DNA of 64,000 nt from positions 2,709,825-2,773,824 of the forward strand of contig NZ_KB910516.1 of the NCBI RefSeq assembly GCF_000372825.1, read 5' to 3'. The notes below the pieces were generated by a model. That model was not told where the DNA came from. It was given only the letters and a program-made list of their open reading frames with translations, and did not search any database. The DNA comes from Methylobacterium sp. 77 (GTDB taxonomy: Bacteria > Pseudomonadota > Alphaproteobacteria > Rhizobiales > Beijerinckiaceae). Within the stretch, counting starts at the first letter, position 1. Each line of letters starts with the position of its first letter. Shown here piece after piece: positions 531-17,086 of the stretch. Both the position numbers and the translations under genes were made by a program.

Positions 531-1718
531 TCAGGAACCGCTGGACGCGGATGGCGAGGGCCGGCGCAGGCGCCGGACGATTTCATAGACCCCGAGCATC
601 GCCAGGGCGACGATGAAGGGCACGAGGTAGTAGCAGACCCGGAACAGCAGCAGCGAGCCGAGAACCTGGTCCCGCGGCAGGCTCGACAGAGCGAGGAGGA
701 TGGTGGCCTCGAACACCCCGAGACCTCCCGGCGCGTTGGAGGCGATACCGAGCATCGCCGCCAGCACGTAGACGCCGACGAAGGTGGTGAAACCGATGGT
801 CGTGCCGGCCGGCAGCAGGACATAGAGCGTGGCCGCGGCCGCGCAGACGTCGCCGATGCCGACTACCATCTGGCTCATGGACACCGTGGCGCCGGGCAGT
901 TCCAGCGACCAGCCCTTGACCCTGACATGGCGGCGCTTGAGCGAGACCCAGCCGAGATAGCCGAACACCATGAGCAGGGCGGCGAACCCCACGCCCTGGT
1001 TCAGGCGGATACTGGTGAAGGTGAGTGCAGCCAATTGCCCGGCCTCGACCACGAGACTGAGGCCGAGGACCACGCCCATGCCGAGCCAGAAGGTGAAGCC
1101 GGCAATGACCGTCAGAGCCGCGATCTTGGCCGCGCTGAGGCCCTTCTTCGAGTAGATCCAATAGCGGATCGTCCCCGCCGTCAGGAGCGGGAAGCCCAGG
1201 GTGAAACTGACGGCGTAGCTGGTGAAAGAGGCGAGCGCCGTCGTCCTGTAGGGGACTTTGATCTTGAGCTGGCGCAGGGCGAGCGCGTCGTAACAGGTGA
1301 GGAAGAGGTAGCTCACGCCGACGAACAGGAAGGCGAGACCGAGCTGTTCGCCCGTGGCCGCCGTCAGCGCCGCGTGCAGTTCGGCCCACGTCACCTGCTG
1401 CGAGAGCTTCCACAGCACGCCGAGCGACACGGCGAAAATGACGATGCTGGCGGCGGTGCCGAGCCAAGTGTAGCGGTTCTTGTAGGAACGCTTGGGCGCG
1501 GGCGGCGCGCCATCCTCGACTTCAGCCGTCGTCACGGCGTCGGCCGCCTTCGATTCGGCCGGCCGCTGATGCTCTCCCACAAAGTTCATGTCGTCGGCGT
1601 CCGCCTCCGCCGGTCTTCCCGCTCGACCTCGACGGCGGCGTGGAATGGGACCGAGCTTTTGCCGGACCTCGGCCCGTGCCCCGGCATTTAGGGTCTTTGT
1701 GTCCGGAAGGCCAGTCAT
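531..1718 (-). CDS. Lysylphosphatidylglycerol synthase-type transmembrane protein (UPF0104/YbhN-like)
   Basis: This is a 395-residue protein. The first ~80 residues are polar and charged (RRRRGRAGR), and the rest holds about eight hydrophobic segments. The order and motifs (FTLGFPLLTAGTIRYW, a late APGGLGVFEA loop) match the membrane half of MprF/YbhN proteins (LPG_synthase_TM). The cytosolic aminoacyl-transferase half of MprF is absent, so lysyl transfer is not expected. Members of this family are thought to move or bind lipids. Its ATG overlaps the stop codon of the preceding UDG-like gene, so the two are probably translated together. A role for it in exporting the product of the upstream cluster is speculation. 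Confidence 0.8.
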   Translation of the reverse strand: MTGLPDTKTLNAGARAEVRQKLGPIPRRRRGRAGRPAEADADDMNFVGEHQRPAESKAADAVTTAEVEDGAPPAPKRSYKNRYTWLGTAASIVIFAVSLGVLWKLSQQVTWAELHAALTAATGEQLGLAFLFVGVSYLFLTCYDALALRQLKIKVPYRTTALASFTSYAVSFTLGFPLLTAGTIRYWIYSKKGLSAAKIAALTVIAGFTFWLGMGVVLGLSLVVEAGQLAALTFTSIRLNQGVGFAALLMVFGYLGWVSLKRRHVRVKGWSLELPGATVSMSQMVVGIGDVCAAAATLYVLLPAGTTIGFTTFVGVYVLAAMLGIASNAPGGLGVFEATILLALSSLPRDQVLGSLLLFRVCYYLVPFIVALAMLGVYEIVRRLRRPSPSASSGS

Positions 1719-2371
1719 CCGCCCTCTTGAGTTGGTGACGGCCGTGGCCGGAGCAGGATCGCGGACGCCTCGTACAGGCCCGCGCGGATCCGTTCGGCGA
1801 CCGCCGGGGACGTACAGACATAGGTCGGGCTCGGATGCGGAACGGCGATGACCGGCATCTCCGGCCGCAGGTGCCGGAGCGGTTCGCGCGACAGGCCGGC
1901 GACACGACCGGCGAGGACGACGACGTCGAGCGACGGAAGCAGCTCGATCAACGGGGCGAGATAGGCGGCGGCCGTCGCGATCTCGGCCTTCCGCGGGGCT
2001 CGGTTGAGGGCACCGGGCGCGTGGATGACCCAGGGGACCGCGTTCCAGATGAGGCTGTGGCGCCGGGCAATCCCTGACTCCGCCAAGAACCGGAACAGGT
2101 TGGCGGCGGTCCCGGTGGGGTTGTCGCGCGAGACGAAACCGGTGCGGCCGATGCTGGGGCCCGGCGTCTCCAGCAACAGGAGCAGCCGTGCCTCGGTCCC
2201 GCCATCGAGCGGATCGGGCTCCGGTACATCCGACGATCGCTCTTTCGCGATCCTCCGCGCCAGCCTGCGCAGAGGATGAAGGCGCTCCGCCTCGAGAAGG
2301 GAGCGGCGACGTGCGACCTGCTCCGGATCGGCGAGGCTCTTCGGCCGGTCCGGATCAGGGTCGGGAAGCAT
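1715..2371 (-). CDS. Uracil-DNA glycosylase-superfamily protein
   Basis: The 218-residue protein carries the two blocks that define the UDG fold. Near residue 68 is LLLLETPGPS, which takes the place of the water-activating motif, followed by an SRDNPTGTA segment. Near residue 177 is HPSPTY, the DNA-intercalating loop. These features suggest removal of uracil or related damaged bases, or a UDG-like fold with another role. The start codon lies 17 bp inside the end of the deacetylase gene and the stop overlaps the next ATG, so it sits in the same transcription unit as the carbohydrate genes. That is an odd place for a repair enzyme. Substrate and family number cannot be fixed from sequence alone. 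Confidence 0.78.
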   Translation of the reverse strand: MLPDPDPDRPKSLADPEQVARRRSLLEAERLHPLRRLARRIAKERSSDVPEPDPLDGGTEARLLLLLETPGPSIGRTGFVSRDNPTGTAANLFRFLAESGIARRHSLIWNAVPWVIHAPGALNRAPRKAEIATAAAYLAPLIELLPSLDVVVLAGRVAGLSREPLRHLRPEMPVIAVPHPSPTYVCTSPAVAERIRAGLYEASAILLRPRPSPTQEGG

Positions 2372-3128
2372 GATCCTCGAACACGGCTGCCGCTTCGCCA
2401 GGAAGCACGCCGGAGAGGCGGAATCGCTCAGACCGTGCCTCGTCGGCGAGACGGCGCATCAAGCCATCGACGCCGCCGAACTGGTATCCGAGTTGGGTCC
2501 CATAGGCGGCGCAAGCTCGCCCCTTCCGTGCCTCGGCGCTCACGGAATAGTGAATCGCACGCTCGGGCAGAGCTGCGAAATCGGACCCGAAAGGCTCCTT
2601 TGGCTCAGCGTGCCGGACCGTGTACGGGAAATCCCGCCACCACAGGATGGGAGCGTCCATCCGCACGCTGCCGAGGGCCCGGACCAACTGGACGTGGTCG
2701 ACATGGCCTCCCACAGCCTGAGGGGCGAGGACGAGATCCGGCGCGACGTCGCGGACGAGCTGCGAGATCGCATCCGAGAGGGCGGCGACGATGGCATCGT
2801 CATCGCGCGGACCGGCGAACAATTCCTTGGGCGAGCTGTAGCCGCGATGCGGCGCTTCCCGGAACGGCAGATGCAGGGGCGGCGCGATGCCGAGAGCGTC
2901 CGCCGCCCGGCGATCCTCCTCTCGCCGAAGGGCCATGTAGTCGATCTCGGGTCCCAATCCCTTGTCGGTCTGGCAGGCCAGGGCGAAGCCCTTCGGATCG
3001 GGGACGGAGGCGGTGAAGATCGTCGCCATCACCACCCGCCAGCCGGAATCGGCCAGGGTCGCGAGGGTGCCGCCGCAGGAAAAGGCGGCATCGTCGAGAT
3101 GAGGCGAAAGCGCGAGGGCGACGGGCAT
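2355..3128 (-). CDS. PIG-L (LmbE/MshB-like) N-acetyl-sugar deacetylase
   Basis: The 257-residue protein opens with the zinc motif LSPHLDDAAFSCGG at residues 7-20, a variant of the family's HPDDE, and later has GGHVDHVQL, which gives the third zinc histidine. PIG-L enzymes remove the acetyl group from N-acetylglucosaminyl groups linked to inositol (MshB, PIG-L) or malate (BshB). The gene follows the GT4 gene by 2 bp. A GT4 followed by a PIG-L enzyme with an inositol-phosphate synthase in the same operon repeats the MshA/MshB logic of mycothiol synthesis. Activity on a GlcNAc-inositol substrate is inferred from this context. The Leu in place of Pro in the first motif is a small deviation. Confidence 0.87.
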   Translation of the reverse strand: MPVALALSPHLDDAAFSCGGTLATLADSGWRVVMATIFTASVPDPKGFALACQTDKGLGPEIDYMALRREEDRRAADALGIAPPLHLPFREAPHRGYSSPKELFAGPRDDDAIVAALSDAISQLVRDVAPDLVLAPQAVGGHVDHVQLVRALGSVRMDAPILWWRDFPYTVRHAEPKEPFGSDFAALPERAIHYSVSAEARKGRACAAYGTQLGYQFGGVDGLMRRLADEARSERFRLSGVLPGEAAAVFEDHASRP

Positions 3129-3130
3129 GG

Positions 3131-4354
3131 TCAGAGAAGGTGCGGCTCTGCGCGGAACCGGCAGTTCGGATCATGTGGCAGGGTGTCGGCGAAATCCGTC
3201 CTTGGCCGCTCGCCGACCACCTCCGCATAGATCTCCATGATCTGGCGACCGACGGCATTCCAGGAATAGACGCGGCGGCATTCCTCCAGGCCATCGTGTG
3301 CGAGCTGTCGGCGCAGCCGCTCGTCCTCGATGACGCGCTGAAGCGCATCCGCCAGAGCGGGAACATCGCCGGGATGGACCAGGAGACCGTTCTCGCCGTC
3401 GCGCAGGCAGTCGGACACGCCGACCGCATGGGTCGAGACCACGGCCAAACCCGCCGCCATGGCCTCCAGGATGGTGTTGGAGAACCCCTCCGCATAGGTC
3501 GGCGACACGAAAACGTCCGCCTGCCGGTAGAGGTCGGGCACGGTGTGATACTCGGCGTAGCCGGTGAAGCGGATCGAGGCCTCTGAGAAATTCAGCTCGG
3601 CCGCGCGAGCCTTCGAGGAATCCACGTCAGGCCCGATGCCGGAAATCACCGCCTCGAAGGGCGTGCCGCGCGCGCGCAGCAGGCCGAGGGCGTCGATGAA
3701 GTCGAGCACGCCTTTCCGGCGATCGACGCGGCCGTGATAGAACAGCCTGACCGGCCCTTCGTGCCCGGCAGGACCGGGAGTAAATCGCGTCGTGTCCACC
3801 GCGCCCGGCACGATGGTGAAGCGATCGGGGTCCGAGCCCAGCCGGTCGCAGACCTCGCCCACGAAGGAGCGCCCGCCGATGAGAAGCGCATTGGCATGGG
3901 CCAGGACCTCGCACATCGCCACGCGATGGGTCTCACAGCAGGAACCGACCCAATGGCCATCGCCGCCCTGGATCGAGACGACGTTCGGAATGCCGAGCCG
4001 CTTCGAGGCGAGGAGCGTCGCCCAACCAGTCGGGTAGCCGTATTGCGCATGCAGCAGATCGAAAGGGCGCCTGTCGTGCTCGGCGACGATGGTGTCGACC
4101 ATCGTTTCGATATCGCGCTCGAAATCTCCGCTCGCCTGCTCGCCCAGCTGCTCGAGGCCGACGACGCGCACGCCCGGGACCGCGGGAGGAGGGCCGCCGC
4201 CATAGACGCGGGTGCCGAATTCATCGCCCCGGTACTGGCTGATCATCGTCACGTCGTGGCCGGCATCGACGAGTTCGCGCAGCAGGTTCTGCGCGTAGAC
4301 GCTCATGCCGGAAATCGCCGGGAAGTAGCGGCGGCTGACGAAGCAGATCCTCAC
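3131..4354 (-). CDS. GT4-family glycosyltransferase (MshA-like context)
   Basis: This 407-residue GT-B enzyme has the N-terminal glycine-containing loop (RRYFPAISGMSVYAQNLL), a central phosphate-binding FYHGRVDRRKGVLDFIDA stretch, and the retaining-GT4 signature EGFSNTILE (E-x7-E) near residue 297. A Cys-Cys-His cluster (GSCCETH) near residue 140 is unusual. It starts with GTG, and its first bases overlap the stop of the TIM-barrel gene. Together with inositol-phosphate synthase and a PIG-L deacetylase, the natural guess is transfer of a sugar such as GlcNAc from a UDP donor to an inositol phosphate, as MshA does. Donor and acceptor are not shown by the sequence itself. Confidence 0.88.
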   Translation of the reverse strand: MRICFVSRRYFPAISGMSVYAQNLLRELVDAGHDVTMISQYRGDEFGTRVYGGGPPPAVPGVRVVGLEQLGEQASGDFERDIETMVDTIVAEHDRRPFDLLHAQYGYPTGWATLLASKRLGIPNVVSIQGGDGHWVGSCCETHRVAMCEVLAHANALLIGGRSFVGEVCDRLGSDPDRFTIVPGAVDTTRFTPGPAGHEGPVRLFYHGRVDRRKGVLDFIDALGLLRARGTPFEAVISGIGPDVDSSKARAAELNFSEASIRFTGYAEYHTVPDLYRQADVFVSPTYAEGFSNTILEAMAAGLAVVSTHAVGVSDCLRDGENGLLVHPGDVPALADALQRVIEDERLRRQLAHDGLEECRRVYSWNAVGRQIMEIYAEVVGERPRTDFADTLPHDPNCRFRAEPHLL

Positions 4355-5196
4355 GCGCTCACCCCGGCCTTGTGGTTGCGGCAGGTCCGAAGATAGTCGA
4401 GCGATGTCGGCACCATCACGTCGGCCCGGTGGCTCTCGCGGGAGAGCTCGACGCAGACGAGACGCTGGAAGCCTATGGCGTCGAGGGCGTCGAGCACGCC
4501 GGCGACATCCATGTCGCCTTCGCCGAAGGGCAGATGGATGTGCTCGCCCCGCGCCATGTCCTCGATCGCCACGGTGCCGATGCTGTCGGCGAATTCCGTC
4601 ACCGCCTGCGCCGGTTCACGCTCGCCGGTGACGAGGCAATGGCCGGTATCGAGAGCAAGCCGCAGCCCTTCGATCTTCAAGGCGGCGAAGTCGTCGAGGG
4701 TCTCGATCAGCATGCCGGGTTCCGGCTCCAGACACGCGACGACACCGTGCTCGCGGGCATAGGCGACGATCTCGGCGACGCCGTCGGCGAGCCAGAGCCG
4801 AGCCTCGTCGCGATCGATCCCGGGTTTCGGCACGCCCGCCCAGAACGAGACCGCCTCGGAATGCAGGATGACGGCGATGTCCACCGCCCGTTTCAGGAAG
4901 CCGATGCGCCGGGCACGCCCCGAGGCGTCGCCGCTCACGAGCGTCGGCTCGTGCTTGGCCTTCGGATCGAGGAGGAAGCGGGCGCCCGTCTCGATGACGC
5001 TGCCGAGACCGAGCCGCTGCAACCGGCTCGACACGCGCTGAGTCTCCTGGACCCAATTCTCCGCGAAGGGATCGAGATGGTGGATGTCGAGGGTCAGGGC
5101 CACGCCCTGGTAGCCGGCATCCGCGATGAGATCGATCGCGTCGTCCAGGCGGTGGTTGGCGGTGCCGTTGGTGTTGTAGGCGAAGCGAAGACTCAT
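4351..5196 (-). CDS. Sugar phosphate isomerase/epimerase-type TIM barrel protein (AP endonuclease 2 family)
   Basis: The 281-residue protein reads as one xylose-isomerase-like TIM barrel. The strands GYQGVALTLDI, ACLEPEPGM, LALDTGHC and LVCVELSRESH supply the usual Glu/Asp/His metal ligands of the family. Members include the inosose enzymes IolE and IolI, hydroxypyruvate isomerase and EboE-like proteins. Its start overlaps the stop of the YcaO gene and its stop overlaps the GT4 start, so it clearly belongs to the cluster. Next to a Gfo/Idh/MocA oxidoreductase and an inositol-phosphate synthase, an inosose or keto-sugar isomerase or dehydratase is a reasonable inference. Confidence 0.82.
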   Translation of the reverse strand: MSLRFAYNTNGTANHRLDDAIDLIADAGYQGVALTLDIHHLDPFAENWVQETQRVSSRLQRLGLGSVIETGARFLLDPKAKHEPTLVSGDASGRARRIGFLKRAVDIAVILHSEAVSFWAGVPKPGIDRDEARLWLADGVAEIVAYAREHGVVACLEPEPGMLIETLDDFAALKIEGLRLALDTGHCLVTGEREPAQAVTEFADSIGTVAIEDMARGEHIHLPFGEGDMDVAGVLDALDAIGFQRLVCVELSRESHRADVMVPTSLDYLRTCRNHKAGVSA

Positions 5197-6779
5197 GCCG
5201 CCCTCCCCTGCTGCTCGAGACGGAACGGCGCATGATGCGATTCCGGCTCGCGGTAGAGCGGGTAATGCCGTCCGACGATGTCGTCCGCCAGCGCCACGTC
5301 GAAAAGCGGCTGGCCGCCGAGACGGTCCAGGGCCTCGGGCGTGAGGCGCACCGGCAGCTTCGTCTCGCTCGCCTCACCGAACGAGATCAGCGGGTGATCA
5401 CGTTCGATCAGTTTGGCGGCGTTGCGCTCACCAATGCGGTGATAGCTCATCGTCTCGACTTCCAGCCCCGGCACGATAGCCTTGACCACGCCGACGCTTC
5501 CACCCGGCGGCGAGCACTCGATGTAGAGAACGTCGAAACCGGCCCCTTCGAGGCGCTCGCGGGCGATACGTCCGCGGGCATGGCCATCGGGAGCCGCGGT
5601 GGTCGGCAAATCCGAGAAGGCCTTGGTGCTGCGCTCAGAATAGACCGTCTCCTGAAGGACGTCACGTAGGCCTTCCGGGGGCAGGACGATCCATTCGAGC
5701 ATCGCCTTGAGAGCGCGGCTCTCTTCCAGATCGAGGCTCGGCAGGGCCTTTTGGATGAAGGCGTTGACGTAGCCCGGCGGGGTCACCCGCTCGGCGAAGC
5801 TCAGCGGACCGTGGCCGAAGGCCTTGCGGACACGTGCGGCCTGGAATTCGAGGAGCGCCTTTCGCATGGCCCGCTCGCGGTCCGGGTCGCAGGCCTCTCC
5901 GCAGGCGGAAAGGGCCACGGGGACCGGTGCGTCGGCGGGGTTCCGGTCGTAGCCGACCACGTAGATGTTGGTCAGGCCGAACTGGTCGGTGGCGAATTTC
6001 GGCAGCGCTCTGATGCCGAGTCCGTCGAGGCGATCCAGCATCGCCCGGTTCTCGGGGCCGATCCCGTCGAGATCGAGCATCACGCCCTGGTCGAGGGCCC
6101 GGAACAGCAGGCCGTTGCCATCGCGCTGGAGCAGTTCGAGCAGGCCGTGGCCGAGGGCGAAATCCACGTCCGGCCCGGCACCGAGGCCGTTGGTGATGAG
6201 GTTGGTGAAAGGCTTGTAGCCCTCCGACAGCTCGAAGTAATCGGTGGCCGCGATGTCGAGGGGCATCAGCACGGTCTCGCCGGTGCGCGCGCGGATGCTC
6301 GGTGTCCATTCGAGCACCGTATCGCGGTCGACCGGGGAGCCGGCGGGCAGGCACAGGGTCAGAGGATCCGCGACCGAACCGGCACCGAAGACCTTCGCGA
6401 GATCATGATACGTGCCCCGCTCCTTCTTGCGCGGCATCACCGCGAGCGAGGGCATCAGGTTCTCGGCGATCTCCGCCACTGCGCCGATCAGCGCCTCATC
6501 GTCGGTGGCGCCGTAGCCGATGCCGCTCGGCATGGCTCCGACGAAGAACGGGTCGTCGAGGAACAGCGAGACGAACCAGACCGGGATGCCTGTTCGGTCG
6601 AGGGGCGCGAGCGGAAAGCCGACGATGCGGCCCTTCGGTAGGATGTCGAGATAGGCGCGGACCGGCTCGGGCAGCGAAGAGGGCAGGCCCTCGACGATCC
6701 GTGCGCCACCGTGGCTGTAGGCGCGCGGCGCCTTGATGCGCGGATCGCGAGCCCTGGCGTCCTGGTCGTGTTCGTTCAT
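5193..6779 (-). CDS. YcaO-domain ATP-dependent enzyme
   Basis: The ATG at 6779 gives 528 residues; an in-frame TTG at 6788 is possible, but a GGGAAG ribosome site fits the ATG better. The core carries YcaO landmarks. NGLGAGPDVDFALGHGLLE matches the ATP/Mg-binding SNGLAAG...EALLHGLLELIERD block. ACGEACDPDRERAMRKALLE matches the second conserved helix. YcaO enzymes use ATP to activate backbone amides, for azoline, thioamide or amidine formation, although a few act on non-peptide substrates or have no known substrate. No TfuA partner, E1-like protein, dehydrogenase or precursor peptide is visible nearby. The flanking genes all handle sugars or cyclitols, so a small-molecule substrate is my inference. 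A 162-bp gap precedes it, so it may have its own promoter. Confidence 0.85.
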   Translation of the reverse strand: MNEHDQDARARDPRIKAPRAYSHGGARIVEGLPSSLPEPVRAYLDILPKGRIVGFPLAPLDRTGIPVWFVSLFLDDPFFVGAMPSGIGYGATDDEALIGAVAEIAENLMPSLAVMPRKKERGTYHDLAKVFGAGSVADPLTLCLPAGSPVDRDTVLEWTPSIRARTGETVLMPLDIAATDYFELSEGYKPFTNLITNGLGAGPDVDFALGHGLLELLQRDGNGLLFRALDQGVMLDLDGIGPENRAMLDRLDGLGIRALPKFATDQFGLTNIYVVGYDRNPADAPVPVALSACGEACDPDRERAMRKALLEFQAARVRKAFGHGPLSFAERVTPPGYVNAFIQKALPSLDLEESRALKAMLEWIVLPPEGLRDVLQETVYSERSTKAFSDLPTTAAPDGHARGRIARERLEGAGFDVLYIECSPPGGSVGVVKAIVPGLEVETMSYHRIGERNAAKLIERDHPLISFGEASETKLPVRLTPEALDRLGGQPLFDVALADDIVGRHYPLYREPESHHAPFRLEQQGRAA

Positions 6780-6941
6780 GTCCGTCAACTTCCCGGTTGC
6801 TCCCGCCGAACGTCCCTACCCTGAGGTACCGCGTCAGCGGCTTCGAGGAAGGCCTCAAGACCCCGCCCGCGCACTGGACGTCTCCTTCGACGCCGCCACG
6901 AATGGCGACATCACGGAGTCGGACAGCGGGAAGGACGTCCC

Positions 6942-7991
6942 CTATGGACGAAGTCCTGTTCTCGAAATCGGCGGCGGCTCGCCACCGCCCGATCCGCATT
7001 CATAAGCCCGCGCCAGAAGGCGCATCGTATGCAGGTCGCGCTCGGCACTGTACGCGTCGCGCTCACCAGGGCGACGCAAGGCCGAGCCGAAGGCGCGGAC
7101 CTGCTCGAGGAAGGGCGAGGCCTCCGCGTCGAAGGGAATCGCCTCGACCTGCCCGCTGGCACCATCGGTGACAGTGAGGGTGCCGCCGGCCACCTGTCCC
7201 ATCGTGTCAATGGCGGTGAGCGCGCCCTTGGTCCCGATCACTTCGAGGCGGCGGCGCGGCAGCGCATCCGGGCAATTATAGGCGACATGGAGGTTGGCGA
7301 GGATGCCGGAGGCGGTGCGGCCGATGAGGAGCGCGCCGTCATCGACCGCGTAATTCTGAGCCCTCGCCTGGGTCAGCGCAGCGATGTCCGCGATGGATTC
7401 ATCGAGCAGGAAATCCACGAGGTCGATGCCGTGGGGCGCGAGATCCATGAGAGCGCCGCCGCCGGCCTTCACCGGATCGATGCGCCAATTGTCCTGGCCG
7501 ACAAACGAAGCCCAGGCCCGGTCGAGCCAGCAGGCATAGACGATGCGGATGGTGGTCACCGCGCCGATGCGGCCCTGCCGGATCGCCTCGCGCATGGCCC
7601 GGTGAGCCGGGTGATGGCGCTGGTCGAAAGCGGTGCCGTAGAAGATGCCGCCATGCCGGACCGCCGCGACCATGGCTTCGGCGTCGAGGAGCGATGCCGC
7701 CATCGGCTTCTCGCAGAGAACGGCCTTGCCCGACGTAGCCAGGGCCTCGACCGCCTCGCGATGAAGGTGATTGGGAGTCGCCACGTAGACCGCTTCGACC
7801 TCGGGCTCAGCGAGCAATCCGGCGAGATCCGGAAAGGCCCGCGCGCCTTCCGCCTCGGCGGCCGCGCGGGAGGCTTCACCGGGGTCGGACACGGCGACCA
7901 GCCGATGTCCCGCCGCGCGGATGCCCGGTGCCATGTAATCGCGTGCGACCCAGCCGTAGCCGACGATGCCCCAACCGATGGAGTCGCTCAT
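6942..7991 (-). CDS. Gfo/Idh/MocA-family NAD(P)-dependent oxidoreductase
   Basis: This protein of about 349 residues has a Rossmann start (GWGIVGYGWVARDY) and the family's catalytic-site motif CEKPMA near residue 95. A central PVKAGGGALMDLAPHGIDLVDFLL stretch provides the conserved Asp and His of sugar dehydrogenases. Family members oxidise or epimerise sugars and cyclitols, including myo-inositol 2-dehydrogenase. The ATG at 7991 shares bases with the stop of the methyltransferase gene (TGATG), and a GTG lies one codon upstream. In this cluster an inositol or amino-sugar oxidation step is plausible but unproven. Confidence 0.88.
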   Translation of the reverse strand: MSDSIGWGIVGYGWVARDYMAPGIRAAGHRLVAVSDPGEASRAAAEAEGARAFPDLAGLLAEPEVEAVYVATPNHLHREAVEALATSGKAVLCEKPMAASLLDAEAMVAAVRHGGIFYGTAFDQRHHPAHRAMREAIRQGRIGAVTTIRIVYACWLDRAWASFVGQDNWRIDPVKAGGGALMDLAPHGIDLVDFLLDESIADIAALTQARAQNYAVDDGALLIGRTASGILANLHVAYNCPDALPRRRLEVIGTKGALTAIDTMGQVAGGTLTVTDGASGQVEAIPFDAEASPFLEQVRAFGSALRRPGERDAYSAERDLHTMRLLARAYECGSGGGEPPPISRTGLRP

Positions 7992-9175
7992 CACCAGCGC
8001 TCCGGCAGGTCGACGAACTCGCGGCGACGGACGCGATCCTCGTGCGGGGATTGATCGCCGCCAACCCAGTCCAGGGTCTCGGGGCCTTCCGAATGCAACG
8101 GATAGGTCACTCGGGGCGCGTATTCGGCCTCGTAGCGTTCCGACGGCCAGGTGACGGCATAGCCGCCCGCCGGATCGGGCTCATAGAGAGGGTTGAGCCG
8201 AAGGGCCGTCCCCTCATTCGGCCATGTCAGCCCATCGAGGATGGCACGCGGCGCCGGCCGCATCCCAGCGCCGGCCACCACCGAGAAAGCCTCGACATGG
8301 CGCAGATCCGTCGGGCGCTGCGGCGAGGGAGCGCGTCTCTCCACGAGGGCGCGGGTGAGTTCGTCGTCGTCATAGACGAGGCCATCCGGAAACAGCTCCT
8401 CGATCTCATCCGCCGAGACGGCGCGACCGGCCGAGAAGCCCGGCCGTTCGGCGTTGTGGATGTGGCTGAGAACGAGCCAGCCATCGTCGCCGGCATTGTG
8501 GCGCAGGCATTCGAGCACGCCCGGCTTGTCGTCGAGGAAGTAGAACGCGTCGTTGCACACCACGAGATCCACAGGGGCGCCGGGGATCGGCCAATGCGGC
8601 GATCCGGCATCGAAACAGACGAGCTGAGCCTTGTCGCCGACGACCCAGTGCCGCGCGACCCAGAGCTTGGCAAAGACAACATCGGCCCCGGCCACCTTGA
8701 CGCCCCGCGCCTGCATCTCACGCAAATAGTGTCCGATGCCGCAGGCGAATTCGAAGACGCAGACCGGATCGTTCCAATGCGCCTCGAGAAGCGTCAGGCC
8801 GGCGAGGAAGGTGGGATCGGTCCATCGATGCAGGAAATAATCTCCGACCCGGCCCCAACCGAGCAATCGCACGGCGTCCCTGAGACTCGCCTTGTCGCGG
8901 TCCCGCACGAGGCCATGGAGATCGAGCGGGTCGGCCGGCGGGCCGGTCCACCATTCGTCCTGGTCGCCAAGCAATCCCTCCAACGCGAGATCGGTCCGAC
9001 CGTCGTCGAGCAGGGCGAGCGTCGCCGCCACCAATTCGTCTCGGCCAGTTCGGAGATAGGGAATCCCATCGATCACGGGCCAGCGCGCATGGGTCACGAC
9101 ATCGCGCAAGGAGTGCGGCGTGTCGGATTTGAGCGGATGTCCAGATTCCGGGGAGAGGAGTTCGAATGGGATCAT
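7991..9175 (-). CDS. Class I SAM-dependent methyltransferase
   Basis: This is a 394-residue protein. A ~120-residue N-terminal segment of unknown role precedes the methyltransferase core. The core has motif I VFEFACGIGHYLREM, the acidic end of strand 2 (VAGADVV) and motif IV VDLVVCNDAFYFLDD. The ~120-residue C-terminal tail is rich in Arg, Pro and Tyr and is not part of the core. It follows the HD gene by 31 bp with a GGGAGG ribosome site and overlaps the oxidoreductase. The product may be O-, N- or S-methylated; the sequence does not say which. The long extensions suggest a dedicated subfamily rather than a housekeeping enzyme. Confidence 0.82.
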   Translation of the reverse strand: MIPFELLSPESGHPLKSDTPHSLRDVVTHARWPVIDGIPYLRTGRDELVAATLALLDDGRTDLALEGLLGDQDEWWTGPPADPLDLHGLVRDRDKASLRDAVRLLGWGRVGDYFLHRWTDPTFLAGLTLLEAHWNDPVCVFEFACGIGHYLREMQARGVKVAGADVVFAKLWVARHWVVGDKAQLVCFDAGSPHWPIPGAPVDLVVCNDAFYFLDDKPGVLECLRHNAGDDGWLVLSHIHNAERPGFSAGRAVSADEIEELFPDGLVYDDDELTRALVERRAPSPQRPTDLRHVEAFSVVAGAGMRPAPRAILDGLTWPNEGTALRLNPLYEPDPAGGYAVTWPSERYEAEYAPRVTYPLHSEGPETLDWVGGDQSPHEDRVRRREFVDLPERW

Positions 9176-9206
9176 GAGATGCCTCCCATCCTGCCGCAGG
9201 GGACCG

Positions 9207-10130
9207 TCACGGGATTCGCATATCCCTGAGGACTCGGTCGTGAAACCCCTTTACCGGGCCCGCATGGACCAGCTCCATCTCGTCGAGCACCGTCTCCATA
9301 GTCAGCGAGGCTGCCCGAAGGTGCTGGGCGATCTGCAGGACACGGTCGATGCAATCGGCGGCATGGAAGGTGCGACCCTCTGCCGTGGCATCGTCGGGTA
9401 GCACCGCTCGCGCACGCTCGACGCTGTCACGCAACGGCGCGTCCAACTCATCGAGCGCCCATTGCGTCGTACGCGCCATGATCGGACCGAGATGGCCGCC
9501 AAGCAGCATTTCACCGGTAAAGCCGGCATCCGGCATCGCCGCATTATGGAAGTGGTGGCTCATCGCTGCGAGGAAGACGAGAGCCGGATCAGCTCGGTAG
9601 AACGGACTGAGGACGACGCCGTATACCGCCACCATCAGGCAATGTTCGGAATGGTTCTCGGGCGGCTCAAGGAGGATGCGCGCCTTGCCGGGACAGGTCA
9701 CGCCCGCCCGAGGCTGGTGGTTCAGCGCTGCGACAAAAGCGGGCAGGTGACCGGGAAGCACGGCCTCGCCATGGCGAAGCGCCTCGGCGAGGCGCGCCTT
9801 CAGCTCCGGATCGACCGCAGAGGCAACGGCATCGAGCCCGGCGGTGAGAACGTCGCCGATCTCGGCTTCGCCAAGGCCGGTCGATGCGAGGAAGGCCGCG
9901 TCGAGATCGCACAGCCGGGATGCCGCGAGGGCCTTGGCGGTGATGTCGAACGCCACCGTTTCCGGATCCGCGCCCCCGGTCAGCGCCGACCAACCCTGCG
10001 CAAACAGCCGCTCAGCGATGGAGCCGATGCGGCCGGCCGAATGCACGCGTTTGAGGTCGTTGAGTTCGACGAACAAATCGCGCAACGCGAAGGGGGCGGC
10101 CATGCCGCCCCCCGTATCGGACGTGGTCAT
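9207..10130 (-). CDS. Divergent HD-superfamily hydrolase
   Basis: This is an all-helical protein of 307 residues. Its ATG at 10130 overlaps the stop of the inositol-phosphate synthase gene. Histidine-rich blocks resemble an HD metal centre: ENHSEHCLM near residue 160, AAMSHHFHNA near residue 190 (where HD appears as HH), and HAADCIDRVLQIAQH near residue 270. HD proteins are usually phosphohydrolases, though the fold also includes inositol oxygenase. Directly after an inositol-phosphate synthase, removing a phosphate from the glycosylated inositol (the missing MshA2 step of mycothiol) or oxidising the ring are both conceivable. The family assignment rests on pattern spacing only. Confidence 0.55.
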   Translation of the reverse strand: MTTSDTGGGMAAPFALRDLFVELNDLKRVHSAGRIGSIAERLFAQGWSALTGGADPETVAFDITAKALAASRLCDLDAAFLASTGLGEAEIGDVLTAGLDAVASAVDPELKARLAEALRHGEAVLPGHLPAFVAALNHQPRAGVTCPGKARILLEPPENHSEHCLMVAVYGVVLSPFYRADPALVFLAAMSHHFHNAAMPDAGFTGEMLLGGHLGPIMARTTQWALDELDAPLRDSVERARAVLPDDATAEGRTFHAADCIDRVLQIAQHLRAASLTMETVLDEMELVHAGPVKGFHDRVLRDMRIP

Positions 10131-11320
10131 TGCCGCACGCCGAGCCAATCGAGCAGCATGTGCTGCTGCTTGCCGAAATCGTGCTCTGGGCCGTGGCCGT
10201 TCGCGACCATCGGCGCCTTGAAGAACGAGGACAACTGCTCTTGCGGGCCGCTCTCGCCGCGCTTCTTGGCGAGGTCGAGCACGCGGGCGATCTCGATCAC
10301 CAGCGGGGCGGCCAGGATGGAATCCTTGCAGAGAAAGTTGACCTTGATCTGCATGCGCTGGCCGAGGAAGCCGGTGACGTCGATGTTGTCCCAGGCTTCC
10401 TTGTCGTCGCCGCGGGGCCGGTAGTAGTGGATGTGGACCAGATGGTCCTCGACCGGATAACCGAGGATCGAATCCAGCACCGTACCCTTGGTGTTGAGCT
10501 TCGACTGCAGCGAATCCTTGTCGTTGAGGGCGAGACCGTCACGGTTGCCGAGGATGTTGGTCGAGAACCAACCGTCCACATGCAGGGCGCGGGCCTTGAG
10601 CGCCGGTGCTAGCACCGTCTTCATCATGGTCTGGCCGGTCTTGCCGTCCTTGCCGGCGAGCGGCACGCCCATCTCGCGGGCGAGTTCGAGCAGGGCCGGC
10701 ACGTCGGCAGCGACACTCGGCGTGAAGTTGGCATAGGGCACGCCGCTCTGGATCGCCGCATAGGCGTAGAGCATCGCGGGGCTGATCGATTCATCGCTCG
10801 CATCGAGACCCTTCTCGAAAGCGTCCCGGGAGTTCAGGGCCGGCGCATCGAGGTCGGGCCAGCGCTCGGTGGAGGCGAGATTGATCACGACGACGTCGTC
10901 GAGATTGCTCTCAAGACGGAAGCGACGGAGGTCGTTGGCGATGACCGACACCGCCTCGCGGTGATCGGCGGCGACGATGCGGTTCGCACCTTCGATGTTC
11001 TTGCAGAACTTGGCGCTACCCACCGCCGGCCAAGGCTTGATGCCCTTCAGCACCTGGGCGCCATTTTCGATATCCTGCTTGGTCAGCACGCCGTGGCCGG
11101 TCGCGGCGGAGGCGAGGTCATCGTCGTTCAAGTCCCACCCACCGAAGACGAGGTCCTTGTAATCGGCCAATCCTGCGACCGAGAGGCCGGCAAGAGGCAA
11201 TCCGTCGAGGCGGTTCGATCCGGATTTGATCATCTCGATGCCGGCGATGGCGGTGGTGGCGACGGCGCCACCCATACCGACGAAGGCAACGCCGACACGG
11301 CGACCGGTCTGCATGCTCAT
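10127..11320 (-). CDS. ino1: myo-Inositol-1-phosphate synthase (inositol-3-phosphate synthase)
   Basis: The 397-residue enzyme converts glucose 6-phosphate to inositol phosphate using bound NAD. It has the Rossmann stretch VAFVGMGGAVATTAIAG and the strongly conserved active-site run GKDGKTGQTMMKTVLAP. DGWFSTNILGNRDG, ILGYPVEDHLVHIHYY and MQIKVNFLCKDSILA follow. These match bacterial inositol-phosphate synthases closely, so this is a confident call. It is the first gene of the minus-strand block; a GAAGGAAG ribosome site lies upstream of the ATG at 11320. Such enzymes are common in actinobacteria and archaea but sparse in alphaproteobacteria. It implies that the neighbouring GT4 and PIG-L enzymes work on an inositol scaffold. 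Confidence 0.93.
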   Translation of the reverse strand: MSMQTGRRVGVAFVGMGGAVATTAIAGIEMIKSGSNRLDGLPLAGLSVAGLADYKDLVFGGWDLNDDDLASAATGHGVLTKQDIENGAQVLKGIKPWPAVGSAKFCKNIEGANRIVAADHREAVSVIANDLRRFRLESNLDDVVVINLASTERWPDLDAPALNSRDAFEKGLDASDESISPAMLYAYAAIQSGVPYANFTPSVAADVPALLELAREMGVPLAGKDGKTGQTMMKTVLAPALKARALHVDGWFSTNILGNRDGLALNDKDSLQSKLNTKGTVLDSILGYPVEDHLVHIHYYRPRGDDKEAWDNIDVTGFLGQRMQIKVNFLCKDSILAAPLVIEIARVLDLAKKRGESGPQEQLSSFFKAPMVANGHGPEHDFGKQQHMLLDWLGVRQ

Positions 11321-11480
11321 TGGGATAAGGCTTCCTTCAGTGGGCCTGTTCAGGCGTTGTCTCCGGCCCGCGAGAGCCGACCTTTCAGGCCCATCCTAAC
11401 TGGTCTCCGGACGATCCGTTCCAACCCCGGCCAGGACGCCTTTTTGACGCGGTTGGGCTGAACCGGGACCGAACGTTTCG

Positions 11481-11519
11481 TTAAAATATCGTTAAATCAT
11501 AGCCTTAACCGTTCCTTAA
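11481..11519. promoter_or_regulatory. Two CtrA-type TTAA-N7-TTAA boxes
   Basis: In the 316-bp gap between the divergent ino1 and lytic transglycosylase genes, two exact TTAA-N7-TTAA elements occur at 11481-11495 and 11505-11519. Their starts are 24 bp apart. This is the full CtrA consensus of alphaproteobacteria, repeated on the same helix face range. They lie about 120 bp upstream of the transglycosylase start and 160 bp upstream of ino1. Cell-cycle control of the transglycosylase is the likely meaning. The rest of the gap shows no gene. Confidence 0.6.
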
Positions 11520-14276: not shown

Positions 14277-14596
14277 GCCGCCCCGTTCCAGGGTGAAATC
14301 AGCTCGGCCGAGGCTTTGGCGGATGGGGAGACGCCACGGATCCGCCTGCGCAAAGAACTGCGCAGGCTCATCCCGCGAAACTCGAAACGACCGCCTCGGA
14401 CTCAACGCGGGAAGACGGAACCCATTGTTCCCGCGCGTCCGACAACCGTGGGCGTCCGATGCGTCCCGAGGGCGGACGGGAACGGCGTAGCTTTGGCGGC
14501 GGGAGATGGTTTAGAACCGGCCTGACCGCCCCGAGGCGTTCCTGCATCGACGCTCTCCCGGGACCGGACTTCACCACAACCCCGCTCGGGCCTCCG
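14277..14596. other. Intergenic region upstream of the PBP gene
   Basis: The 320-bp gap is GC-rich. Open frames cross it, but they are continuous with or antisense to the PBP reading frame and have no recognisable content. It probably holds the PBP promoter and leader. I see no RNA gene or terminator in it. Confidence 0.4.
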
Positions 14597-17086
14597 ATGA
14601 ATCCTCTCGACCCGGACCGCCCGAGCCACGAGAGGCCGGACCCGACCAAATCCGATCCGCAACATTGCGAGACCGAAGAGACGCGGGCCGCCGCCCGCGA
14701 GGCCGCCGCGGCCGCCAAGGTGCTCGGCCGCCAGCTCGGCGTGCTGGCGGCCGGTGCCGCGCGCAGGGCCGGACGCCGGGCGGCCGGCGCGGCGCGGGCC
14801 GCCGGACCCGCCTGGCAGGGTTTCGCCGGCCGGTTCCGGTCCCGCACTTCGGACCCCGCCGTCGCGCGGCCGGGCGCGCCCCTCGCGGACGCATCGCCCG
14901 AAAAATCCCTCGTCGGACGCCTGCGCCGTCGCCCCCTGGTGGCGGCGCTGCTCGCCCTCGTGCTGCTGCCCCTGGCCCTTCTCGCCGGCCTCGTCCTCTA
15001 CAGTTTCGCGACATTGCCGCCGCTGGGCGGAGTCGTGCCGGAAGGGGGACAGCGCGCCCTCACAGTGGAAGCGGATGACGGCCGGGTCTTCGCCACGCGC
15101 GGCGCGTTCCAGGGCCAGAAGCTGACGGCCGCCGACATGCCAGCCCATCTCGCCCAGGCCGTGGTCGCCATCGAGGACCGGCGATTCTACTCGCATTGGG
15201 GCATCGATCCGCGTGGATTGCTGCGGGCGCTCTGGCGCAACACGGTGAGCGGCGGTGTGCGCGAGGGAGCCTCGACGATCACACAGCAATATGTCCGCCT
15301 GACCTCCCTGACCCAGGAGAAGACGCTTCGCCGCAAAATTCAGGAAGCGTTCCTCGCCCTGCGCGTCGAGAGCACGATGTCGAAGGAGGACATCCTCCTC
15401 GGCTATCTGAACACGGCCTATTTCGGTGCCGGCGCCTATGGGATCGACGCTGCGTCGCGGCGCTATTTCGGCAAGGGCGCGAAGGCGCTGACGCTTCCCG
15501 AGGCCGCGATGCTCGCCGGCCTCGTCCGGGCGCCGTCGCAGCTCGCCCCGACGCGCAATTTCGGCGGCGCCAAGGAGCGCGCCGACATCGTGCTGCAGAC
15601 CATGGTCGAGACCGGCGCGATCAGCGCCGTGGACGCGGACAAAGCGAGAGCCCAGACGATCACCCTACGCACGCCGCCCGAGACACCGCCCGGCACCAAT
15701 TACTTCCTCGACATGGTGGCGGCCGATGCCAAGCGCCTGTCGGACACGCCCGGCGACGTCACCCTGCGCACCACCCTGAACCTCGATCTGCAGAGTCTGG
15801 CGGAAGGCGTCATCGCCCGGCGCCTCGACGCGGAAGGGGCGAAGAAGAAGGCGAGCCAGGGCGCCATGGTCGTCCTCAGCAAGGAGGGCGCGATCCTCGC
15901 CATGGTCGGAGGGCGGGATTACGAGGACAGCCAGTTCAACCGTGCGACCCAGGCCAAGCGCCAGGCCGGCTCGTTGTTCAAACTCTTCGTCTACCTTACC
16001 GCCTACGAGAAGGGCCTGACGCCCGACACCGTGCTCGTGGATCGGCCGATCCAGATCGGCGATTGGGAACCCCAGAACGCGAGCGGCCGCTTCCGCGGCG
16101 CGGTTCCCCTCCGCACCGCCTTCGCGCAATCGATCAACACCATCGCCGCGCAGCTCGCCGACGAGGTCGGCATGGCCTCCGTCATCGACACGGCCCGCAA
16201 GCTCGGCGTCACCTCCGATCTACCCAACGTGCCGAGCCTCGCGCTCGGTTCGGCCGAAGTGAGCCTGCTCGAGATGACGCGGGCCTATGCCGGCGTTCTG
16301 GCGAGCGCCCAGCCCCTCGACAGCTACGGCGTCCACGCCATTCGCGGGACCGGACCGGATCCACTCTACCTGCGCCCGGACGCCAAGCCGACGGTGCCGC
16401 TGCCCGGTGAAAGCCGCGCGATGATGCTCGACTCGCTCCAGGCGGTGGTCGATAGCGGGACAGGGCGGGCCGCACGGATCGCCAATATCGCGGTGGGCGG
16501 CAAGACCGGCACGACCCAGGATTACCGCGATGCCTGGTTCGTCGGGGTCACGCCGGACCTCACCGTCGGCGTGTGGATCGGCAATGACGACAATGCTTCG
16601 ATGAACAAGGTCGGCGGCGGCGACCTGCCCGCCGCGATCTTCAAGGATTTCATGCAGCGCGCCAACGCGCAGATGGCGAGCCGGCGCAAGCGCCCCTCCG
16701 CCGCCCGCGCCGAGCCGGCTCCGGCCAAGGAGACCGTCGCGGCCGGCGCCCTGCGCGGCGTGCCGGAGGTGATCGATACCGGAACCCTGTCGTTCCGAGG
16801 CCGGACGGTGCGCCTCCTGGGTGTCGATGGCGAGCGCGGTGCCTTGGCACGCCAGCTCGCGCGCTACCTGCGCAGACGGGAAGTCGTCTGTTCGCAGGCG
16901 GCGACTGGCGCGGCCGACGAGCCCGCGCCCCAAGGCCTGCGCTGCCAGATCGACGGCGACGACCTCGCATCACTCATCCTCACCGCCGGCGGCGCACGCG
17001 CGGCCGACAATGCGCCGTCCGACCTCCTGGCGGCGGAGGAACAGGCCCGCTCCGAACGCGCCGGGTTGTGGCGGCGCGAGCGCTGA
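14597..17086 (+). CDS. Class A penicillin-binding protein (PBP1A type) with C-terminal nuclease-like domain
   Basis: I start at the ATG at 14597 (829 residues); an upstream in-frame ATG at 14459 would add 46 residues lacking PBP features. An Ala/Arg-rich cytosolic tail leads to one membrane segment (about 113-140). The glycosyltransferase domain has its catalytic Glu in VAIEDRRFYSH near 190. The transpeptidase domain has SLFK at 459-462, SIN at 512-514 and KTGT from 636. It polymerises and cross-links peptidoglycan. From about 725 to the end is an extra domain resembling the staphylococcal-nuclease OB fold (GRTVRLLGVDG, AEEQARSERAGLWRR) that lacks an obvious catalytic triad. This fusion is unusual. 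Confidence 0.92.
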   Translation: MNPLDPDRPSHERPDPTKSDPQHCETEETRAAAREAAAAAKVLGRQLGVLAAGAARRAGRRAAGAARAAGPAWQGFAGRFRSRTSDPAVARPGAPLADASPEKSLVGRLRRRPLVAALLALVLLPLALLAGLVLYSFATLPPLGGVVPEGGQRALTVEADDGRVFATRGAFQGQKLTAADMPAHLAQAVVAIEDRRFYSHWGIDPRGLLRALWRNTVSGGVREGASTITQQYVRLTSLTQEKTLRRKIQEAFLALRVESTMSKEDILLGYLNTAYFGAGAYGIDAASRRYFGKGAKALTLPEAAMLAGLVRAPSQLAPTRNFGGAKERADIVLQTMVETGAISAVDADKARAQTITLRTPPETPPGTNYFLDMVAADAKRLSDTPGDVTLRTTLNLDLQSLAEGVIARRLDAEGAKKKASQGAMVVLSKEGAILAMVGGRDYEDSQFNRATQAKRQAGSLFKLFVYLTAYEKGLTPDTVLVDRPIQIGDWEPQNASGRFRGAVPLRTAFAQSINTIAAQLADEVGMASVIDTARKLGVTSDLPNVPSLALGSAEVSLLEMTRAYAGVLASAQPLDSYGVHAIRGTGPDPLYLRPDAKPTVPLPGESRAMMLDSLQAVVDSGTGRAARIANIAVGGKTGTTQDYRDAWFVGVTPDLTVGVWIGNDDNASMNKVGGGDLPAAIFKDFMQRANAQMASRRKRPSAARAEPAPAKETVAAGALRGVPEVIDTGTLSFRGRTVRLLGVDGERGALARQLARYLRRREVVCSQAATGAADEPAPQGLRCQIDGDDLASLILTAGGARAADNAPSDLLAAEEQARSERAGLWRRER

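Follow-up and report, generated by a model that had tools for sequence, protein, structure and literature searches.

A conserved gene set combining Ino1, GT4, PIG-L and YcaO enzymes in Methylobacterium sp. 77: a candidate inositol and amino sugar pathway

Gene content and organization of the cluster

The 64,000-nucleotide (nt) stretch of the Methylobacterium sp. 77 genome analysed here (the window; contig NZ_KB910516.1, positions 2,709,825 to 2,773,824) carries eight consecutive minus-strand genes, from a myo-inositol-phosphate synthase (Ino1) to a PIG-L family deacetylase, with a YcaO-domain enzyme among them. This cluster very likely represents a real, conserved and undescribed pathway: the genes are kept together and in order in several phyla, and no published description was found in the open-access PMC literature, judged by the titles and abstract openings of the listed matches. 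The genes, in window coordinates, are:

10127..11320, minus strand: Ino1, myo-inositol-phosphate synthase, 397 amino acids (Pfam, PDB profile and motifs)
9207..10130, minus strand: HD-domain protein, candidate sugar or inositol phosphatase, about 307 amino acids, with an extra N-terminal helical domain
7991..9175, minus strand: S-adenosylmethionine-dependent methyltransferase (MT), 394 amino acids (Pfam Methyltransf_23, 1.8e-10)
6942..7994, minus strand: Gfo/Idh/MocA oxidoreductase (Gfo), sugar or inositol dehydrogenase type (Pfam)
6780..6941: 162-nt spacer between Gfo and YcaO, the place of a metallo-beta-lactamase (MBL) fold gene in most other lineages
5193..6779, minus strand: YcaO-domain enzyme, 528 amino acids
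4351..5196, minus strand: TIM-barrel sugar isomerase/epimerase (Pfam AP_endonuc_2, 8e-33)
3131..4354, minus strand: family 4 glycosyltransferase (GT4), 407 amino acids (Pfam Glyco_trans_1_4, 1.5e-34)
2355..3128, minus strand: PIG-L family deacetylase, 257 amino acids (Pfam PIG-L, 1.2e-17)
1715..2371, minus strand: UDG-superfamily protein, cluster-linked in some alphaproteobacterial families (Pfam UDG, 9.2e-11)
531..1718, minus strand: MprF-type membrane protein, LPG_synthase_TM (Pfam, 3e-12)

The eight open reading frames (ORFs) from Ino1 to PIG-L had been listed with their families in a first-pass annotation, and the ORF list, Pfam and NCBIfam bear out both coordinates and families. Its description of most of them as overlapping also stands, as only two of the seven junctions leave more than 2 nt between genes. 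Ino1 and HD overlap by 4 nt (ATG at 10130), MT and Gfo by 1-4 nt, and YcaO/TIM and TIM/GT4 by 4 nt each; GT4 and PIG-L are 2 nt apart, HD and MT 31 nt, and Gfo and YcaO 162 nt. The YcaO start was corrected to the ATG at 6779, giving 528 amino acids. The extent of the cluster had been drawn too narrowly, since the same-strand run goes on into the UDG-superfamily gene (1715-2371), which overlaps PIG-L, and the MprF-type gene (531-1718), which overlaps the UDG-like gene by 4 nt. In addition, a ninth enzyme, the MBL-fold protein, had been missed, its gene lying outside the window.

Distribution and conservation

YcaO is single-copy in the source genome (a single contig of 4.66 Mb), and its best-scoring named relative is that of M. 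marchantiae (94%); for the HD protein the closest named relative is in M. bullatum (90%). In genome samples that are subsets of the respective groups, YcaO is found in 58 of the 59 genus genomes. The order sample gives 9 of 397, every one from the same genus, and the class sample 3 of 385, one of which (G348) belongs to another family. The eight genes follow the same order in all 17 loci of a first set, G348 included, where the MT match of L022 and the HD match of G348 are each in two pieces.

An alignment-based YcaO scan of named genomes, with a G348 sequence as its first, found 278 relatives. Only the best 80 were retained as loci, so the taxon breadth given here is a minimum rather than a frequency. 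Thirty-two of these loci lie outside Methylobacterium and its close metagenome-assembled genome (MAG) relatives. Their hosts include Skermanella, Aerophototrophica, Acetobacteraceae (Pararoseomonas, Belnapia, Acidisphaera, Plastoroseomonas) and Aurantimonadaceae, as well as Corallococcus, Myxococcus, Pyxidicoccus, Streptomyces and MAGs of Isosphaeraceae, Gemmataceae and Chloroflexaceae. Ino1, HD, Gfo, YcaO, TIM, GT4 and PIG-L are found together in 63 of the 80 loci (44 Methylobacteriaceae and 19 of the 32 others). In 61 of these 63 they follow a single order on the same strand; L051 and L109, both non-Methylobacteriaceae, do not. The loci counted as Methylobacteriaceae include two MAGs labelled Beijerinckiaceae, L097 and L103, whose YcaO is 81-86% identical. 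This synteny rules out a chance neighbourhood. The expectation that the genes would be conserved together in relatives is thus borne out by the neighbourhood comparison across Methylobacterium, other Rhizobiales and further phyla, which indicates a dedicated cluster, one not confined to this alphaproteobacterium or to the Rhizobiales.

The cluster is rare in Streptomyces, where YcaO was detected in 1 of 199 genomes, that one being the centre genome of the sample, and it lies on plasmids of Hymenobacter volaticus and Roseomonas haemaphysalidis. The patchy spread and plasmid carriage suggest horizontal transfer, which probably accounts in part for the distribution over phyla. None of 16 viral-contig stretches matching the search pattern encoded a relative, so a phage-borne cluster was rejected. 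In the H. volaticus plasmid (L116:10072-11120 and 14341-15600) Gfo is annotated as two ORFs and the GT4 match is in two pieces, which is decay or sequencing error.

The individual enzymes

The 32 loci scanned for family members are a choice among the loci fetched. The alignments retained 24 of 29 sequences for GT4, 22 of 24 for MBL, 29 of 30 for YcaO, 24 of 27 for TIM and 18 of 24 for MT; that of HD holds 24 of the 28 found plus the window's own (without L019, in two frames, L043, L058 and L081). Two further alignments were also made without L114, L116 and L117, and the GT4 and Gfo motif counts exclude L115. Families missing from the fold-match lists are not taken as excluded.

The identification of Ino1 as genuine is upheld by both Pfam domains above cut-off (NAD_binding_5, 8.1e-63, 213.2 bits; Inos-1-P_synth, 2.6e-34, 118 bits) and by intact Lys and Asp motifs, GKDGKTGQT and KEAWDN being near-invariant in 25 sequences; the match to the PDB Ino1 7nwr reaches 4.1e-87. 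The HD protein is divergent, as originally described: it has no Pfam or NCBIfam match of its own, its orthologues match HD_3 weakly, with scores under the Pfam cut-off, and the predicted structure contains an HD-domain fold preceded by a helical domain of about 120 residues. Conserved residues are H159, H188-H189 and D255/D258, with HH where the H..HD..D ligand set has HD. It differs in this doublet and in the extra N-terminal domain from the HD phosphohydrolases YfbR, HDDC2 and OxsA, and is a candidate for the phosphatase of the pathway. In G348 the HD gene (L019:5420-6306) is matched in two overlapping pieces in two frames.

Gfo scores below cut-off against the NCBIfam models for Gfo6 xylose dehydrogenase (111.9 bits) and IolG (109.5 bits), and PDB profile matches of the TIM barrel are UlaE, IolI, IolE, D-tagatose 3-epimerase and 3-keto-glucoside 4-epimerase. 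GT4 was scored in 75 of the 80 loci, reduced to 74 as that of L115 is a weak unrelated match (27%). It has conserved motifs of its own (HAQYGYP, SIQGGDGHWVG) and reaches no known equivalog by NCBIfam cut-offs; a grouping with exopolysaccharide enzymes, which would have spoken against the original proposal, is not seen, the best such model (EpsE) scoring 103.8 bits against a cut-off of 400. PIG-L appears active, judging from its zinc motifs PHLDD (PHxDD) and HxDH, present in 28 of 28 sequences, and its nearest solved relatives by sequence are the glycopeptide pseudoaglycone deacetylases 3dfi and 2x9l. MT was not found in L043, L050 and L051, and none is annotated in the Hymenobacter locus.

YcaO has its domain above cut-off and a YcaO fold in the predicted structure, and its best match by profile and fold is the archaeal M. 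jannaschii MJ1094 (6pe3/6peu), a match that leaves out the model residues after about 460 (some 65). It also matches, below cut-off, the NCBIfam family for McrA-glycine thioamidation, and we know of no McrA substrate to be expected here. The Glu of the YcaO ExxER pair binds Mg. This canonical acidic pair was not found; the cluster enzymes have ExxQR, with Gln in 31 of 31 sequences where MJ1094 has Glu. The Myxococcaceae loci L042:5193-8198, L047:5181-8182 and L045:266-4809 contain two or three tandem YcaO matches (50-53% to the query), possibly a split of subfunctions.

A ninth gene of the MBL fold

An MBL-fold gene is present in 25 of the 32 non-Methylobacteriaceae loci, directly before YcaO in 24 of these (exception L051). 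The seven loci lacking it are the three lone-YcaO loci of Aurantimonadaceae plus L041, L044, L048 and L043 (short piece only). Its family assignment is weak (PqsE/GloB-like, 2e-4 to 0.03), and three orthologues match Pfam Lactamase_B, two above and one below cut-off; the N-terminal cysteines C8, C11, C23 and C26 are invariant in 22 sequences. In Methylobacterium no MBL gene lies beside YcaO, and a 41% identical homologue is found at G000:C1:402596-403426 in the source genome and in 59 of 59 genomes of the genus. Conversely, in the Aureimonas leprariae locus Ino1-HD-MT-Gfo-TIM-GT4-PIG-L and MBL (71%) are present and YcaO is located elsewhere. The displacement of MBL or YcaO with retention of the gene fits one function in trans; evidence against it comes from Aureimonas pseudogalii and an Aurantimonadaceae MAG, in which a YcaO stands alone and a close GT4 relative is lacking.

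No convincing MBL remnant was found in the 162-nt spacer (24 queries, best E 0.029 against a 162-nt database). The spacer has one reading frame without stop, part of a 167-amino-acid minus-strand ORF (6496-6999) that overlaps the YcaO start out of frame and is probably a GC-rich artefact.

Relationship to mycothiol and other inositol-derived compounds

The mycothiol pathway consists of Ino1, MshA, a phosphatase, MshB, MshC and MshD. The cluster is like it in having an inositol phosphate synthase, a GT4, a phosphatase (a candidate here) and a PIG-L deacetylase, and unlike it in adding YcaO, Gfo, TIM, MBL and MT and in occurring in several phyla. A pathway to a low-molecular-weight thiol of the mycothiol or bacillithiol kind would share these opening moves and is nevertheless very unlikely. 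GT4 scores 85.3 bits against MshA TIGR03449 (cut-off 462.5) and 72.1 against BshA (273.7), Ino1 is closer to the 7nwr type and scores 53 bits against mycothiol Ino1 TIGR03450 (638), and PIG-L scores 33.3 bits against BshB1 (182.5) and matches no mycothiol NCBIfam model. These curated cut-offs rule out orthology to either pathway, and the mycothiol link drawn earlier is kept in its opening logic, as an analogy only. Moreover, bshB1 is annotated as a separate gene next after PIG-L in the Hymenobacter cluster, and the cluster also occurs in Streptomyces, which make mycothiol. MshC and MshD are not among the conserved locus genes; the genome was not searched for them. The hosts presumably span lineages using glutathione, mycothiol or bacillithiol, which argues against a thiol-buffer role.

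The fortimicin/istamycin and kasugamycin pathways are of the aminocyclitol type. They resemble the cluster in an inositol-derived ring, glycosyltransfer, a dehydrogenase and methylation; they differ from it in that its nine genes include no aminotransferase and do include YcaO.

The substrate of YcaO

All YcaO enzymes characterised so far, to our knowledge, have a peptide or protein as substrate, and one may be encoded elsewhere. Published work describes YcaO chemistry on peptides and proteins (PMC13063428), formation of a backbone amidine by a YcaO (PMC11002830) and one Roseomonas biosynthetic gene cluster with a YcaO, described as azoline-type (PMC8776678). The cluster enzyme could act on a protein or an unlinked peptide, by a modification like those of ribosomally synthesized and post-translationally modified peptides (RiPPs) or ribosomal proteins, with the other enzymes glycosylating the product. 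Besides the known substrates (PMC13063428), the lone YcaO of two Aurantimonadaceae points this way. With script-chosen starts, L057, L069 and L117 show unbroken overlap of neighbouring genes from Ino1 through PIG-L (in L117's own annotation Ino1 and HD are 29 nt apart), so there is no room for a precursor inside, and among 499 short ORFs in the 1.2-kb flanks of 19 loci no conserved family extends beyond three Acetobacteraceae groups. These two results rule out a RiPP with a linked precursor. No TfuA, E1-like/SagC-type, SagB or peptidase family is found among the nine genes, nor is TfuA or an E1-like/SagC-type protein annotated in L116 and L117, unlinked copies not having been searched, and in different phyla YcaO goes together with Ino1 and GT4. 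We consider this reading as a whole, with the other enzymes glycosylating what YcaO modifies, unlikely.

Proposed pathway

We lean, with modest confidence, towards a dedicated nine-enzyme small-molecule pathway combining inositol, an amino sugar and YcaO, with eight genes in the window and the ninth elsewhere in the genome. This reading builds on the observed co-conservation, gene order, overlapping genes and intact active-site motifs, and on the predicted folds of HD and YcaO. Judged from the encoded families, the product likely contains inositol and an amino sugar, and the chances that YcaO acts on this small molecule are about even. Ino1 would convert glucose-6-phosphate to inositol phosphate, GT4 would transfer an N-acetylhexosamine onto inositol or inositol phosphate, the HD protein would remove the phosphate and PIG-L would free the hexosamine amine. 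Gfo and the TIM barrel may oxidise and isomerise a ring carbon via a keto intermediate, and MT, where present, may cap a hydroxyl. YcaO would use ATP to activate an amide carbonyl of this non-ribosomal scaffold and introduce sulfur, nitrogen or a hydroxyl of the molecule itself, to give a thioamide, an amidine or an oxazoline, perhaps assisted by the Cys4-MBL hydrolase. The similar order of the nine-enzyme block in Methylobacterium, Myxococcus, Streptomyces and Hymenobacter argues for a metabolite from which its hosts truly benefit.

Several points weigh against this pathway or limit its support, besides the known preference of YcaO enzymes. The distance matrices of eight genes in a set of 17 loci correlate with a mean r of 0.84 against a shuffle maximum of 0.055, but the shuffle control leaves shared species ancestry in. 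MBL is missing from 7, Ino1 from 12 and MT from 8 of the 32 non-Methylobacteriaceae loci, contig ends explaining such incomplete loci only partly. The single sampled Methylobacterium genome with no detectable YcaO (G395) keeps MBL, and the two Aurantimonadaceae noted above have YcaO and no close GT4 relative. The acceptor half of GT4 does not align to MshA; the match covers mainly the donor half, which makes an acceptor-site comparison uninformative.

If the proposed pathway is correct, YcaO chemistry would reach beyond peptides and proteins, inositol-glycoside assembly would gain a candidate HD-type phosphatase, and the cluster, near-universal in the easily grown Methylobacterium, would offer a genetic handle on survival of drying and UV in bacteria living on leaves or carried by air.

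Neighbouring genes and ecological leads

In 11 of 37 loci, every one of them alphaproteobacterial (L019, L036, L037, L038, L044, L046, L048, L057, L058, L065 and L117), an mdoH-type homologue (osmoregulated periplasmic glucan synthase; annotated mdoH in Roseomonas) is found close by. Together with the MprF-type gene next in the Methylobacterium run, and with GT4 and PIG-L enzymes being common in envelope pathways, this would suit sugar genes whose product is an envelope glycan or the headgroup of a glycolipid, or which decorate periplasmic glucans, YcaO modifying a partner protein or being a tailoring extra. We find this fairly unlikely: the loci of Streptomyces, Myxococcus and Hymenobacter showed neither neighbour, the nine genes include no lipid- or polymer-handling family, and Ino1 usually belongs to the set. 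The MprF-type gene, found in 0 of the 32 non-Methylobacteriaceae loci, is probably a lineage-specific neighbour outside the pathway.

At E<=1e-15, UDG-like relatives are rare in the class, where they turn up in 4 of 372 genomes; the three YcaO-positive genomes are all among these four. A radical-SAM gene of the spore photoproduct lyase (SPL) family is annotated beside the cluster in R. haemaphysalidis; in A. pseudogalii (L112) an SPL-family gene (8740-9804, minus strand, 67% to the Methylobacterium one) diverges from the lone YcaO (9983-11506). These neighbours might repair DNA damage caused by a toxic product against which the host protects itself. Such a role is highly improbable: the UDG-like gene is inside the locus in just 4 of the 32 non-Methylobacteriaceae loci, near-universal presence in a genus would be unusual for a toxin, and no transporter family was seen spanning the 37 compared loci, the families common to most groups being the nine genes and their opposite-strand frames.

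SPL lies 3 kb from MBL in the source genome, an adjacency that is not conserved in Methylobacterium (no SPL in 13 other MBL neighbourhoods). Of 18 cluster genomes or records, 12 have a close SPL copy (14 at E<=1e-10, less two distant ones of 26-28%); in this set Hymenobacter is represented by its plasmid record alone. For the class as a whole the figure is 3 of 337, two of the three carrying the cluster; G348 has SPL and is absent from these matches, presumably not having been drawn. The SPL and UDG co-occurrence counts are uncorrected for phylogeny. The hosts presumably come from air, leaf, biocrust, lichen and spores, judged partly from record titles, and for the product a role in desiccation, UV or dormancy survival is the likeliest one, as a lead only.

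In a tentative extension, possible rather than probable, the cluster would be the first YcaO pathway with a substrate other than a ribosomal peptide or protein. Bacteria exposed to desiccation and UV (phyllosphere, air, biocrust, lichen, spore formers) would produce a cross-phylum class of inositol-aminosugar compound that bears a thioamide, amidine or oxazoline and is linked to SPL and UDG-like proteins. In the dry state this compound may modify or shield DNA, like dipicolinic acid in endospores. Against this link, the 18 SPL-tested genomes or records include the two where it was first seen, 6 of the 18 show no close copy, and SPL is common in Streptomyces anyway (42 of 150).

At L061:4356-6169 and L112:11489-14659, genes resembling ABC sugar transporters, as judged by eye from translations, adjoin the lone Aurantimonadaceae YcaO.

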